Origin: Bacteroidetes bacterium ADurb.Bin008 | Lineage (GTDB): Bacteria > Bacteroidota > Bacteroidia > Bacteroidales > Tenuifilaceae | Reading direction: 5' to 3' | NCBI GenBank assembly: GCA_002071445.1 | Contig: MWFE01000013.1 | Coordinates: forward strand, 1-64,000 | DNA length: 64,000 bases | Shown: piece by piece, positions 21,230 through 62,800 of the stretch | Position numbering within the stretch: position 1 is the stretch's first letter | Layout of the letters: every line of letters begins with the position of its first letter | Made by a program: the position numbers and the translations under genes | The notes under the pieces: model-generated | Databases searched by the model: none | What the model saw: the letters and a program-made list of their open reading frames with translations, nothing else | Told to the model about the DNA's origin: nothing

Positions 21230-22414
21230 ATGAATATCCATGAGTATCAGGCAAAAGAAATATTAAGGAATGCCAAAGTTCCTGTTCCCGCAGGCAAAGC
21301 GGTCTTCACTGTTCCCGAAGCTGTAACAGCCGCTGAGGAAATATTCAACCTAACTAATACCAATGCCATAGCCGTAAAGGCACAAATCCATGCAGGCGGG
21401 AGAGGCAAAGGTGGTGGGGTTAAAATCGCCAAAGATTTAGATGGGGTAGCACTCCATGCACAGTCCATTTTGGGCATGAAGTTGGTAACCCATCAAACCG
21501 GCCCCGAAGGGAGAATGGTTAAGAAGTTGCTCGTAGAGCAAGGAATATATTATCCGGGTCCAAGCCCCGTTAAGGAGTTCTACGTCAGCATCCTGCTCAA
21601 CAGAGCAACAGGTCGCTACATGATATTGTACTCCGCAGAGGGGGGAATGGATATTGAAGAAGTGGCAGCGAAAACACCACACCTTATATATAAAGAGGAA
21701 ATTCATCCAATCGGAATACAAGCCTATCAAGCAAGGCGAGTGGCTTTCAATTTAGGTCTTTCCGGGCAGGCATACTCTGCCATGGTTAAGTTCATAATGG
21801 CACTATTTAAAGCCTTTGTCAGCTGCGATGCCTCTATGGTGGAGATAAATCCGGTTATCAAAACATCCGACGATAAGATTTTTGCCGCTGATGCTAAGAT
21901 AACTTTAGATGACAGTGCCTTGTATCGGCATCCTGAATTGGCGCTATACCGCGATTTAGATGAGGAAAACCCGGCTGAGATTGAAGCATCGGAATCAAAC
22001 CTCAACTTCATAAAACTTGATGGTAATGTGGGTTGCATGGTGAACGGTGCCGGATTAGCCATGGCTACCATGGACATAGTTAAACTCTCGGGAGGAAATC
22101 CTGCCAATTTTCTAGACGTGGGCGGAAATGCCAATGCTAAAACCGTAGCTGCAGGTTTTAGAATTATTCTCAAAGATCCTGCAGTGAAGGCTATCCTTAT
22201 CAATATATTCGGTGGAATTGTACGATGCGACAGGGTAGCACAAGGCGTAATAGACGCCTATAAGGAGATTGGAAACATTCCTGTCCCTGTTGTCGCCAGA
22301 CTACAGGGTACCAATGCCGAAGAGGCTAAACAGCTTATTGACCGCAGCGGGCTAAAAGTATTTTCGGCCATTACCTTAAAAGAGGCTGCCGAACTGGTTA
22401 AAAAACTGGTGTAA
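21230..22414 (+). CDS. sucC: Succinate-CoA ligase (ADP-forming) beta subunit
   Basis: 394 residues, close to the usual 386-400. ATP-grasp domain at about 1-230: MNIHEYQAKEILRNAKVPVPAG, the AVKAQIHAGGRGKGGGVK nucleotide loop, then MVEINPV and the Mg-binding DAKITLDDSA. C-terminal CoA-ligase domain with GAGLAMATMDIV, ANFLDVGGNA and FGGIVRCDRVAQGV. It catalyses the substrate-level phosphorylation step of the TCA cycle, interconverting succinyl-CoA and succinate. The alpha subunit gene sucD is not adjacent in this window, an uncommon arrangement although split sucC and sucD are known. Confidence 0.97.
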   Translation: MNIHEYQAKEILRNAKVPVPAGKAVFTVPEAVTAAEEIFNLTNTNAIAVKAQIHAGGRGKGGGVKIAKDLDGVALHAQSILGMKLVTHQTGPEGRMVKKLLVEQGIYYPGPSPVKEFYVSILLNRATGRYMILYSAEGGMDIEEVAAKTPHLIYKEEIHPIGIQAYQARRVAFNLGLSGQAYSAMVKFIMALFKAFVSCDASMVEINPVIKTSDDKIFAADAKITLDDSALYRHPELALYRDLDEENPAEIEASESNLNFIKLDGNVGCMVNGAGLAMATMDIVKLSGGNPANFLDVGGNANAKTVAAGFRIILKDPAVKAILINIFGGIVRCDRVAQGVIDAYKEIGNIPVPVVARLQGTNAEEAKQLIDRSGLKVFSAITLKEAAELVKKLV

Positions 22415-22419
22415 ACAAA

Positions 22420-22455
22420 GTGAAAGCCTCAACATTTACAAGTTTAGGCTTTCAC
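22420..22455 (+). terminator. Hairpin after sucC
   Basis: GTGAAAGCCT (22420-22429) pairs with AGGCTTTCAC (22446-22455), 10 bp with a 16-base loop. There is no long T run, so termination is probable but not certain. It lies between convergent genes. Confidence 0.6.
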
Positions 22456-22461
22456 AAGTTG

Positions 22462-22656
22462 CTATTCCTCCTTTTTCAAAGGACAAGTGTTGATGCCAAG
22501 TATATAGTAAAGTCCACAAAAATTTACTAATGCTGTTGCAATAGGAAGTAGGGCTAACAACCCCCACCAACTTTTGTAAATAATCCCCAAAGCAGCTATC
22601 AACACACCAATGATAAGCCTAATCACCTTGTCAGTTGTTCCAATATTCTTTTTCAT
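22462..22656 (-). CDS. DUF2892 family small inner-membrane protein
   Basis: 64 residues from the ATG at 22656 (MKKNIGTTDKVIRLIIG); the longer reading frame to 22701 lacks family features. KNIGTTDKVIRLIIGVLIAALG is the DUF2892/YgaP-membrane-domain opening, followed by a second helix (about residues 24-44) and the Cys-containing tail FCGLYYILGINTCPLKKE. Two transmembrane helices are predicted. Family members often accompany rhodanese or redox proteins; here the nearest minus-strand genes are a YbaN-like protein and CDGSH proteins, 400 bases upstream, but no common transcript is evident. Confidence 0.85.
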   Translation of the reverse strand: MKKNIGTTDKVIRLIIGVLIAALGIIYKSWWGLLALLPIATALVNFCGLYYILGINTCPLKKEE

Positions 22657-23063
22657 CGCCTTGTATTTAAAAAATTTCACTATTAACAGTTTTAAAGGCA
22701 CAAGTGTTCATCTTTTTTCCCAATCCAAAATGTTAACCGACAGGCTCTATTATATAAGTTCCCGACTTTGTTACATTACGATTTGGCATGTGCTAAGTTT
22801 TAGATAATCCATCTATTAGCTTCGAAAATTGCTGAAGATATTTTCGGATTGGCTTTTTTTACCTTAATAACATCAACTCGTATATCACTACATTACTTTC
22901 ACAAGTGATATTTGGCCGTTGGTCAAAGATTTATAAGCAGATGTGTTTTTTTGAATACTTTTGTATCGGAAAGGTAAGCTCATGGCTTATAGTTTTCCGG
23001 TGGTTAATGAGAGTACGGCGCAGATAAGATCTGCGCCGTATGTTTTATAGTAAAATTGATTTA
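22657..23063. other. Gene-poor gap with a promoter-hairpin unit
   Basis: 407 bases without a recognised gene. The left part is featureless A+T-rich DNA. The right part (22956-23050) holds a TAnnTTTG element, two hairpins and a 22-codon ORF, described separately as a possible small RNA. Confidence 0.5.
22956..23050 (+). ncRNA. Possible small RNA or tiny-ORF transcript
   Basis: TACTTTTG (22956-22963) fits the -7 consensus. About 8 bases later begins a hairpin (GGAAA 22968-22972 with TTTCC 22994-22998, and TAAGC 22975-22979 with GCTTA 22985-22989), followed by a perfect 12-bp stem with a 3-base loop (23014-23025 with 23029-23040) and TGTTTTATAG. This looks like a short transcript of about 75 nt with a terminal hairpin, though the T run is short. 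An in-frame ATG at 22982 opens a 22-codon ORF to 23050 (start MAYSFPVVNES). Unproven. Confidence 0.35.
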
Positions 23064-23468
23064 CTATTTGCGGGCAGCATTTCGCAAGGTAACCACATGA
23101 ACTGTGACTGCAACGGCAATGACAACAAGCAATGCTTGTAACCATACGGTCCCTTTTAGCCATATGCAACTTAGAGCTATGGCTCCCCAGAGTAAAACGA
23201 GAGTATATATTTTCATAGCAGGACTGATAGCCCTGTGATAAATATAGTTATATATATAGTGGCCAAATATTCGGTTGGTTAGAAGCCAGTTGTAAAACCT
23301 TTGTGAACTCCTCATGAAAAGGTACGAGGCCAACAGCAAAAATGGAGTTGTGGGAAGAATGGGGATAAAGGCCCCGAGCATGCCTAATGCGACTGCAATA
23401 AAACCCATAACAATCATCAAAAACCGCAACCAGGGTTTTTGAATTTTAACAAGTTTTCTTTCAAACAT
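23064..23468 (-). CDS. YbaN family (DUF454) inner-membrane protein
   Basis: 134 residues. The DUF454 pattern is clear: LRFLMIVMGFIAVALGMLGAF, then PILPTTPFLLLASYLFMRSS near residue 40-60, and RFYNWLLTNRIFGHYI. Three or four membrane helices. Its function is not established in the family; homologues sit near iron or envelope genes. The stop lies at 23064 and its ATG at 23468 is 26 bases downstream of the CDGSH gene stop, so it is the third member of the minus-strand CDGSH transcript. Confidence 0.88.
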   Translation of the reverse strand: MFERKLVKIQKPWLRFLMIVMGFIAVALGMLGAFIPILPTTPFLLLASYLFMRSSQRFYNWLLTNRIFGHYIYNYIYHRAISPAMKIYTLVLLWGAIALSCIWLKGTVWLQALLVVIAVAVTVHVVTLRNAARK

Positions 23469-23494
23469 TTAGAGGGTAAAAGTGATACCAGGGA

Positions 23495-23689
23495 TTATTT
23501 ACTGTGACTCCCGTCGCAGTAGGGTTGCTTCTGAGTACGGCCACAGGCACACAACCACACTTCTCTATCATTGTCAAGTTGAAGTACGCAGCTGTTAATA
23601 TCGGTTATGGTGAAATTACCTGTAATTATTATTGGCCCTTCCCGGGTAATTTTCACTTCCGCTGTTTTCTTGGTATTGGCACTATCCAT
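23495..23689 (-). CDS. CDGSH iron-sulfur domain protein
   Basis: 64 residues from ATG 23689; an alternative GTG at 23695 overlaps the upstream stop by four bases (GTGA). It ends with the canonical [2Fe-2S] motif: Cys-Ala-Cys, then QPYCDGSH, the three-Cys/one-His ligand set of MitoNEET-type domains. The first half is the beta strands ITREGPIIITGNFTI. CDGSH proteins bind a labile [2Fe-2S] cluster. The gene is cotranscribed with and overlaps or abuts the upstream Fer4/CDGSH fusion. Confidence 0.9.
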   Translation of the reverse strand: MDSANTKKTAEVKITREGPIIITGNFTITDINSCVLQLDNDREVWLCACGRTQKQPYCDGSHSK

Positions 23690-47563: not shown

Positions 47564-47595
47564 ATAGTACAACCGAATAGCCGACGATAACCTAT

Positions 47596-47633
47596 AAAAA
47601 AAAGGTAGCCACTTATAACAGCTACCTTTTTTT
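47596..47633. terminator. Bidirectional terminator between TPR/SpoIIE gene and tRNA-Pro
   Basis: An A run plus GGTAGC (47604-47609) pairs with GCTACC (47621-47626) plus a T run. It can stop the SpoIIE transcript on the plus strand and the tRNA transcript on the minus strand. Confidence 0.9.
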
Positions 47634-47634
47634 G

Positions 47635-47708
47635 TCGGGGTGAGATGACTCGAACATCCGACCCCTTGCACCCCATGCAAGTGCGCTAGCCAACTGCGCC
47701 ACACCCCG
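47635..47708 (-). tRNA. tRNA-Pro (anticodon GGG)
   Basis: On the minus strand the acceptor CGGGGTG pairs with CACCCCG, the anticodon stem CTTGC/GCAAG holds ATGGGGT with anticodon GGG, and the T arm is GGATG-TTCGAGT-CATCT (one G-T pair). CCA is not encoded (discriminator A then CA). Ends next to the bidirectional terminator. Confidence 0.94.
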
Positions 47709-48080
47709 AACTCAATAACGGATGCAAAGATAACCATTTTTTCATTATCCCATATTTTTTACCATGAATTTTGCCGGACGGTTTTTCTATGTTGACTGTG
47801 TGGCTGAAAGGGCTTTAGCCTATCCTCGACTGGGGTTTGAATTCTTTTTAGGGGAAACAATATTCAACTATGACGGACTTTTATAATTCCTAAAATATTC
47901 TCTCCCAATTTCGAAAATAATTGGCATTGCTTCAATACTTCCCTTCAAAGGTAAATCCATTCATAAGTTCTGAAACACGTTGATTATTTCTAATTTTTCA
48001 TTGGCAGCAATTAGTATAAGGTTTTTAAAAAGTGTAACTTTAGAAGCGTTGTACAGACCATAATCATACCTTTGCAAACC
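47709..48080. other. Region between tRNA-Pro and the LuxR-type regulator gene
   Basis: 370 bases, A+T-rich. It holds the regulator's -7 element (48067-48074) and a 40-codon ORF (47764-47886) that I do not call. No hairpin of note. Confidence 0.5.
48067..48074 (+). promoter_or_regulatory. -7 promoter element (TACCTTTG) of the LuxR-type regulator gene
   Basis: TACCTTTG fits TAnnTTTG. It ends only 6 bases before the ATG at 48081, so the predicted mRNA has almost no leader. The TTG at 48072 lies inside this element and is rejected as a start. Confidence 0.5.
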
Positions 48081-59867: not shown

Positions 59868-62800
59868 ATGGCATATCGGAATAACATAAAGGCAACCCTG
59901 CTTTGTACCATTGCTCTGCTAATCCACACCATGGCATACAGCCAGCAGGTGGTTGTGGATGATTTCGAGAGTACCGATGGCTGGAGTTTTGTCAAATCCG
60001 ATGGGGTGAACCTACGCCTCGAGCCCGGGGATGGGGTTTCGGGGAATGGCCTGCGTTTTGACTACGATTTTACCCTCGGAACTGGGTATGGGGGTATCCA
60101 AAAGTGGTTCACGTTCGACTTGCCCGATAATTTTGAATTCTCCTTTTGGATAAAGGCTGATTCTCCCGACAACAATTTCGAGATTAAATTTTTGGATAGT
60201 TCGGGGGAGAACGTATGGTGGGTTAACAACATAAACTATTCTTTCCCAACGGAGTGGAAAAAAATCCGTATTAAAAAAAGGCATATCAGCTTTGCCTGGG
60301 GGCCAACAGATAACAGGGGGATAAGCCGCATCCGCAGGATTGAATTTACCGTGGCATCGTTTGTTGGCGGCAAGGGTACGGTATGGATTGACGACCTTAG
60401 ATTTCAACCCCTGCAGCCCGAAACGCAAGCCTATCCCATTCCACGGATTACTGCAACCTCTTCGGCACCAATAACCAACCCACAGAGCATTGCCGATGGT
60501 GCTTCAGAAACTTTTTGGCAAAGCCAAAGCGGCAGTCCACAGTCCATTACGTTCGATTTCGACGGACAGCGGGAATTTGGCGGATTGCAGATTGACTGGT
60601 GTCAGGGAAAGCACGCCGAAAGTTTTGAGGTATCAATTTCCGACGACGGTAAGGAGTGGACAAGGGTATTTACGGTGGATAACAATCGCCAACAGAGAAG
60701 TTTTGTTGACCTTTCCGAATCGGAGGCTGCGTATTTACGGTTGAACCTGTTGAAAGGTGTACATCCAAACGGATTTGGAATAAACAATGTCAAAATACTT
60801 GATGTAAAAGATTCGCAAACCCCCAACGACTTTTTCAGATACGTGGCCAAAAACTCGCCCGTGGGCGATTACCCCCGTTACTTCCTCGACCAGGCATCGT
60901 ACTGGACTGTGGTGGGCCCCAACACCGACGTTAAGGAAGCCCTGATAAACGAGGATGGGTTGGTTGAGGTGGGAAAAGCCATGTATTCCATCGAGCCCAT
61001 GATGATGATTGACGGGAAACTATTCAATTGGAGCAATGCCAACCCGACTCAGAGTATGAAATTCCCCCACGCCTCCGATGAGCTTGGGTTTACACCATCG
61101 GTTAAATGGCAATGCAATGATATCGAACTTGTTACGGGAGTGTCAACTTCGGGCACAGCCAACGTGAATTCGCAGCTGAATATTGGATATTACCTGAAAA
61201 ACAGCTCTGCTCAAACCCGGGATTTTGATTTATACTTACTCCTAAGGCCTTTTCAGATTAACCCCTACTACCAGTTTCTAAACCTGAACGGCGGTGTGGG
61301 AAAAATTTACTCCGTTGCGGAGAGGGATAAAGGGAACAGCATTGAGGTTGACCATAAGATGATATACACCACAAGGGAATACGACCTCTTCGCGGCGGGA
61401 ACAACGGACGAGGGGAACCTGGTTGACATGATAAGGAGGGGCCAACTGACGAATGGGGTTAAAGCAGTTCACCCCCATGGAAGGGCTAATGGCGCCATCC
61501 GATACCATATCAACCTTAAACCCGGAGAGGAAACCATGTTTTTTCTGGTGGTACCGTTCTACCATGAACTTCAGCCGGATTATCCGATTACCAACGAAAG
61601 GGTGCTTGATGATTTCAAGCAAGCTGAATTGTTCTGGGAGTCGAAGGTGAACCACATTCGGTTTAACCTGCCCCCATCGGCCAAAAGGATAGTGGACACC
61701 TACAAGTCCAATCTGGTTTACATACTCATCAACAGGGATAGGGCGGGCTTTCAGCCCGGCTCTCGATCCTACGACCGTAGCTGGATTCGCGATGGGGCAC
61801 TCACCTCATCAGCATTGCTGAAATCGGGGATAGACAATGAGGTTCGTGAATTCATTCAGTGGTATTCCGCCTACCAGTACGACAATGGCAAAGTACCCTG
61901 CGTGGTGGACGCCCGTGGCCCCGACCCGGTGCCGGAGAACGACAGCCATGGTCAGCTTATCTACCTCATTAGGGAGTATTTCAATTTTACACACGATACT
62001 GCATTCCTGCGTTCGAACAATGAGCACGTACTGAAAGCGGTTGATTACATCGAAACGCTGATTGCAGAGCGTTCCACGGAGCATTACAGAAGCGGAAACG
62101 ATAGCATCAGGGCGCATTACGGGCTGGTGCCGGAATCAATCAGCCACGAGGGTTATTCTGAGAAAGCCATGCACTCCTATTGGGACGATTTCTTTACCCT
62201 CAAAGGCCTGAAAGATGCCGTTGAAATCCAAAGAGTGCTTGGCGAAGAGAACAACCGCCGGCGTATAGCCGCCATCAGGGATACGTTCAGGGAGAATTTG
62301 TACAACTCCCTGGAGATGGCCATGAGGTTAAGGGGGATTGACTATATCCCCGGCTGCGTTGAACTGGGCGATTTCGACCCCACTTCAACCACCATTGCCC
62401 TTACGCCCTGCAATGAGTTTAATAATCTTCCCAAGCCACAGGTTTACAATACTTTCAATCGATACTTCCAGTTTTTTGAGGAGAGAAGGGATGGCAAAAG
62501 GGAGTGGGACAAGTACACACCTTACGAAACAAGGCTTATCGGTTCGTTCATACAGCTCAACGAGCCCCAGAAGGCTCATCGGTTGATTGAGTATTTCCTC
62601 AACCATCAACGCCCCCGGGCGTGGAATCACTGGGCCGAGGTGGTCTGGAACGATGAGCGAAAGCCCGGATTTATCGGAGATATGCCCCACACGTGGGTGG
62701 GCAGCGATTTTATCAATGCCATACGAACCATGTTTGTTTTTGAGAATGAGTACGATAGCACCTTAGTAGTGGCATCGGCGCTGTATCAGGATTGGATAGA

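Follow-up and report, generated by a model that had tools for sequence, protein, structure and literature searches.

A candidate gene for a small regulatory RNA with an 11-nucleotide core shared by related Bacteroidota genera

The window analyzed here is a stretch of 64,000 nucleotides (nt) of Bacteroidetes bacterium ADurb.Bin008 (contig MWFE01000013.1, positions 1 to 64,000), and its gap 22415-23063, which lies between a succinate-CoA ligase beta gene and a minus-strand DUF454 gene, contains an element which is very probably the gene for a short regulatory RNA (small RNA, sRNA) of about 80 nt present in several related Bacteroidota genera, as judged from sequence comparison. The first-pass annotation had described this gap as the largest of the window; the element does lie within it, but the gap is not empty, as it holds a YgaP-like membrane-protein gene on the minus strand (22462-22656), and the 407 nt that remain are fewer than those of the stretch 47564-48071, although that stretch holds a transfer RNA. 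The same annotation's succession of a -7 promoter element, a hairpin and a perfect stem of 12 base pairs (bp) is confirmed in every part, and the 22-codon ATG frame that it reported is present.

The region 22956-23060 folds with a z-score of -6.04, and none of 200 shuffled sequences is equally stable. Hairpin 1 folds at 22964-23002 through the helices GGAAAG/UUUUCC and GUAAGC/GCUUAU, while hairpin 2 consists of perfect 12-bp arms at 23014-23025 and 23029-23040 with a short T-run behind them; a terminator scan of 22400-23500 found no other terminator-like site on the plus strand. Between the two hairpins stands the 11-nt core CCGGUGGUUAA. In G001, the one other genome of the same genus that was compared (G000 is the window's own genome), a 103-nt block at 22946-23048 is identical, whereas 22800-22949 has 16 mismatches in 150 nt, all of them before 22946, and 23050-23099 has seven mismatches and a gap. 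Because the identity is limited to this block, the conserved stretch runs from the promoter to the T-run; nearby coding stretches are also highly alike, however, so that the identity with G001 is by itself moderate evidence. We infer that the sRNA gene is transcribed, with a probable start near 22968-22970.

The element was found in 11 of the 27 genomes of the family (its own included), which belong to five of nine genera (two carriers in g1, one in g2, five in g5, two in g7 and one in g8). A covariance model built from two sequences matched G002 (E 0.13) and G008 (E 0.24) weakly but over its full length, and both of them share CCGGTGGTTAA between the hairpins. The pattern TAnnTTTG-N15-45-core is matched in 10 of the 27 family genomes, and the pattern GTCAAA-N52-82-core, which does not include the -7 element, is matched at exactly nine loci, the same as those of the first pattern minus G025; neither has any match among backward controls, and both give one match per genome. 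The match in G025 was dropped (it lies within a stop-free frame of 648 codons and its 3' fold has only -2.5 kcal/mol), and two further carriers came from synteny, G007 beside DUF454 and G018 upstream of an arginine-deiminase-family gene. The core is exact in 10 carriers and reads CTGGTGGTTAA, with one change, in G018. Since the 16 other genomes were examined solely by the model, the patterns and, where fetched, the DUF454 and arginine-deiminase neighbourhoods, diverged copies may have been missed.

Beyond these carriers the matches have the character of background. DNA similarity searches of 60 relatives gave some match at E<=1 in 52, full-length only in the window's own genome and G001 and otherwise short and weak, and no match to the element was found in phage records and viral contigs. 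Covariance-model matches in G093 (33.9 bits, E 4.6e-4) and G268 were dropped because by eye they are without the core. In the order set of 393 genomes, 6 of which are of the same family, 8 of the 387 genomes from outside the family match at 9 places, compared with 10 backward-control matches, which is chance level by a hand count. Six of the nine places lie in stop-free frames of at least 200 codons, and their 3' folds range from -3.3 to -12.2 kcal/mol, compared with -12.5 to -24.3 kcal/mol for the carriers, although the two ranges nearly touch. In G043, two loci (L088 and L091) hold near-identical AT-rich sequence with the core string at equal distance from two contig ends, and have the look of a repeat family.

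The string TAnnTTTG, which is given as the published -7 consensus of Bacteroides in the parts of PMC7366714 available to us, occurs 62 times in the window against 61 expected; the string alone is therefore at chance level, and support for the -7 element comes from its conservation. Among the 10 carriers with an exact TAnnTTTG the upstream box starts 37 nt (eight carriers) or 38 nt (two carriers) before it; in G007 the -7 element is, by eye, degenerate (TGCTTTTG), and the box is present in all 11 carriers. No -33 TTTG is evident by eye at the window locus, but according to the same parts of PMC7366714 a -33 motif is not identifiable in Flavobacterium johnsoniae, so that its absence here is not in itself proof of an activator.

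Table 1. Features of the candidate sRNA locus in the window (positions are those of the window unless a locus is named) and intron matches at two related loci
Feature	Position	Strand	Remarks
Upstream box TTGGTCAAA	22919..22927	+	TTnRTCAAA in 10/11 carriers, CTTGTCAAA in G002; candidate activator site
-7 promoter element TACTTTTG (TAnnTTTG)	22956..22963	+	Exact in 10/11 carriers
5' hairpin (hairpin 1)	22968..22998	+	Folding; inside the 103-nt block identical in G001
22-codon ATG frame	22982..23050	+	Probably not functional; not conserved
Core CCGGTGGTTAA	22997..23007	+	Candidate seed or protein-binding stretch; identical in 10/11 carriers, one change in G018
Terminator-like hairpin (hairpin 2)	23013..23041	+	13-bp stem, then GTTTTAT to about 23048; same place in carriers
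Group II intron matches 3' of sRNA terminator	L285 4046-4217 (G019); L286 555-781 (G018)	- / +	RF02001

The arrangement of box, -7 element, core and two hairpins is common to the carriers across genera, while the sequences of the hairpins differ between genera. The basal helix of hairpin 1 is GGAAAG/UUUUCC, GGAAA/UUUCC, GGUC/GAUC or GAGA/UCUC, and its apical helix is mostly built around AGC/GCU. Alignments made with MAFFT misplace the hairpins; the stems were set by hand across carriers, and the inner-stem row of G005, which had matched the wrong place, was excluded. The full RNA folds with z-scores of -3.9 to -6.6 in 9 of the 11 carriers, and in the named helices of g5 all 80 of 80 cells pair, with one double change. 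Covariation within g5 is not above that of shuffled controls, so the structural support consists of the folding and of the layout kept across genera, and not of counted covariation. The first-pass annotation had tied its proposal to conservation of the hairpins or of the reading frame in relatives, and it is the two-hairpin layout that is kept, whereas the reading frame is not.

Downstream of hairpin 2, and on its strand, two genera have matches to a group II intron family, with 125.2 bits in G019 and 43.9 bits in G018. The G019 intron has a GTGCG start 8 nt past the stem, and that of G018 a less typical GTGGG, 4-8 nt past the stem depending on the pairing; no reverse transcriptase was recognized by eye among the frames listed at the two sites. 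Group II introns of the class IIC context are described as requiring a stem-loop (PMC10190682, in the parts available to us), and the position of the matches just past hairpin 2 in two genera is counted here as favouring a putative sRNA gene with its own terminator.

The genes around the element vary among carriers, and the neighbourhoods of different carriers interlock. In seven genomes (G002, G022, G005, G016, G011, G007 and G018) the sRNA gene and an arginine-deiminase-family gene are divergently oriented; in G011 the two are separated by frames of 170 and 72 codons, and in G022 the protein has a Pfam ADI match that is below the arcA equivalog cut-off. The corresponding gene is about 18 kilobases (kb) away on the same contig in G008 and about 3 kb away in G019, and no match at E 1e-30 was found in G000 or in G001 (a genome 63% complete), from both of which it was apparently lost. 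Since these two genomes have the sRNA without an arginine-deiminase match, the sRNA is not merely that gene's leader. The 3' neighbour is DUF454 in G007, G000 and G001, glycine dehydrogenase in G011 and, from sequence likeness, seemingly the same in G022 and G016. DUF454, Fer4/CDGSH-like and DUF4294-like genes, the latter two named by their likeness to window proteins, are located no more than about 9 kb from the sRNA in G011, and their counterparts flank the sRNA of the window. In the window itself a 14-nt inverted repeat, 93% complementary and without a clear T-run, follows directly past the succinate-CoA ligase stop codon (22420-22455).

The mechanism that we favour, at odds somewhat better than even when taken as a whole, is action in trans with the core as the seed. 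A free-standing sRNA gene of roughly 80 nt would be driven by the housekeeping-type TAnnTTTG element, probably assisted by an activator at the TTnRTCAAA box, which is suggested by the fixed spacing between box and -7 element. The transcript would begin at hairpin 1 or slightly upstream of it, this hairpin possibly protecting the 5' end, and would end at hairpin 2. Part of CCGGUGGUUAA would pair with a short segment of one or several messenger RNAs (mRNAs), altering their translation or stability. With the transcript assumed to start 25-33 nt upstream of the core, the core has a mean unpaired probability of 0.41-0.83 in G000, G001, G002, G008 and G007, and its complement, with at most one mismatch, has 76 sites in G000 alone compared with 61 for the reversed pattern.

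A number of results weigh against this interpretation, some of them bearing on the structure and the others on the seed. The whole-RNA z-scores of G007 and G018, both of g7, are only -1.2 to -1.3 (these two copies may be decaying), hairpin 1 alone has z-scores of just -0.2 to -3.5 across carriers, and the covariation in g5 is equalled by shuffles in 255 of 500 cases. The unpaired probability of the core is 0.14-0.56 among the five carriers of g5, in which GGUUAA is paired with the stretch that follows it, and 0.33-0.53 in G018. Over four genomes the core complement is not enriched (199 sites compared with 270 for the reversed pattern), and among 148 site records drawn from these 199, a set that counts one site twice and takes in the sRNA loci, only five lie close to a start, each in a different gene. 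The best of them lies 41 nt before a polyferredoxin start and is interrupted in G001. Pairing with the leaders of the arginine-deiminase genes is no better than with shuffled sequences in five of seven cases, the other two being equalled by 8 and 11 of 200 shuffles, and no conserved mRNA target was found in the target searches, which miss seeds shorter than 10 nt, wobble pairs and action through an RNA-binding protein. The strongest pairing in the window, with the gene at 59868 (7 of 500 by shuffling), was rejected as the best of 45 genes and as lying mainly outside the core. The leader of a Fer4_5 (4Fe-4S) gene of the window's genome (L143 701-711) has ATAACCACCGG, with a predicted pairing to the core region of -21.7 kcal/mol, compared with -15.0 kcal/mol in G001, where it is interrupted.

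Because core complements are not enriched, no conserved target was found and the core is predicted to be mostly paired in g5, a protein-binding role has to be weighed, and we regard it as a less likely but substantial alternative that the sRNA gene produces an RNA which titrates or guides an RNA-binding protein, the core being that protein's site and not an mRNA seed. This would account for a core that is almost invariant although complementary mRNA sites are neither enriched nor conserved, and the predicted pairing of the core in g5 also speaks for it, but a sponge would be expected to carry more than the single copy of the motif that each RNA has. In a more speculative and rather improbable form of the idea, a so far uncharacterised RNA-binding protein would dock at CCGGUGGUUAA and an uncharacterised regulon would be marked by the TTnRTCAAA box, RNA and protein forming a family-specific regulatory pair; if this is true, the pair occurs even without the usual arginine-deiminase-family neighbour.

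It is very unlikely that the locus holds no RNA gene and consists just of a terminator, serving either DUF454 or transcription that reads through from the left, together with a chance hairpin. The strong stem does stand beside the DUF454 stop, but the terminator scan lists it for the plus strand alone and it hence cannot end DUF454 on the minus strand, and box, -7 element and core keep their spacing among loci whose neighbouring genes differ.

The first-pass annotation had left open whether the stretch is a regulatory RNA or a small peptide gene, and the features kept across genera, namely promoter, two-hairpin layout and core, speak for the RNA. A conserved peptide gene, with the window product MAYSFPVVNESTAQIRSAPYVL and shared residues PVVN encoded by the core, is scarcely credible. 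A frame-0 ATG upstream of the core, open in the window, exists in 5 of 11 carriers, with 22 codons in G000, 25 in G001 (where the stop is changed) and 8 (MLKSPVVN) in G022, G019 and G011; it is absent from the other six (G002, G008, G005, G016, G007 and G018), G016 having a 31-codon ATG frame in a different frame. From a GTG within the core, frames of 16-42 codons run in G000, G001, G002, G008 and G007, but the frame ends after 3 codons in each of the five carriers of g5 and after 8 in G018, and the core does not vary at third positions either. A small peptide conserved among the carriers is thus not supported by these frames. That the element is a cis-acting leader or attenuator of the 3'-side gene, as a stable hairpin followed by a U-rich tail might suggest, can be put aside with similar confidence, since in all 10 carriers examined the first open reading frame listed 3' of the core runs on the other strand.

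Bacteroidota sRNAs come mainly from gut Bacteroides in the consulted parts of the cited papers; the present sRNA is defined by an anatomy kept across five genera, and as its core is short enough for mutagenesis and its promoter box offers a handle on the binding factor, both regulator and targets become testable. No Rfam family reaches its gathering score over the element in the window or in the 11 carriers (six at a relaxed threshold, five at the gathering score). Matches below the gathering score, to SurA (gathering score 100) on the other strand with 10.5 bits for the window and 26.9 bits (E 0.0009) for L076, and to RsaE (29.6 bits, gathering score 79) and Yfr10 (28.4 bits, gathering score 43) on the sRNA strand in L082, were taken as chance. 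The stretch GGUGGUUA may resemble the 5' strand of 5S ribosomal RNA. The core string has as its sole match in full-text literature a paper on heart-muscle cells, and among the papers listed by searches for Bacteroidota sRNAs none was seen to describe the present RNA.

The element carries the marks of a trans-encoded sRNA at the sequence level, with its own promoter and an intrinsic terminator in an intergenic position and no conserved reading frame. Bacteroidales-1, Bacteroides-1 and Flavo-1, reported in the accessible part of a 2010 comparative survey (PMC2864571), are likewise computationally found structured Bacteroidota RNAs, and are not among the Rfam matches of the window or the carriers. 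MasB, as far as PMC10994844 was available, is an RNA of about 100 nt which is narrowly conserved, is activated by the transcription factor Cur and pairs with mRNA, and it can be likened to the present RNA by description alone. The published FopS query, in the excerpts of its source at hand, ends in GGTTAACAAA, which is also found in the G002 carrier, and by eye GGTTAA(CAAA) is the sole stretch in common with that query, one so short that it may be due to chance. From the same excerpts, FopS is multicopy and has a single-stranded 5' end with the R1 sequence and no 5' hairpin, whereas the present RNA has a 5' hairpin and one match per genome, so that the unstructured, R1-carrying 5' end characteristic of the FopS/GibS family is not found in it. 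The layout nevertheless resembles that of such trans-acting sRNAs as GibS and FopS of Bacteroides thetaiotaomicron, to the extent that these are described in the consulted parts of PMC7366714 and PMC11697453, and the putative sRNA is a new family of a known kind.
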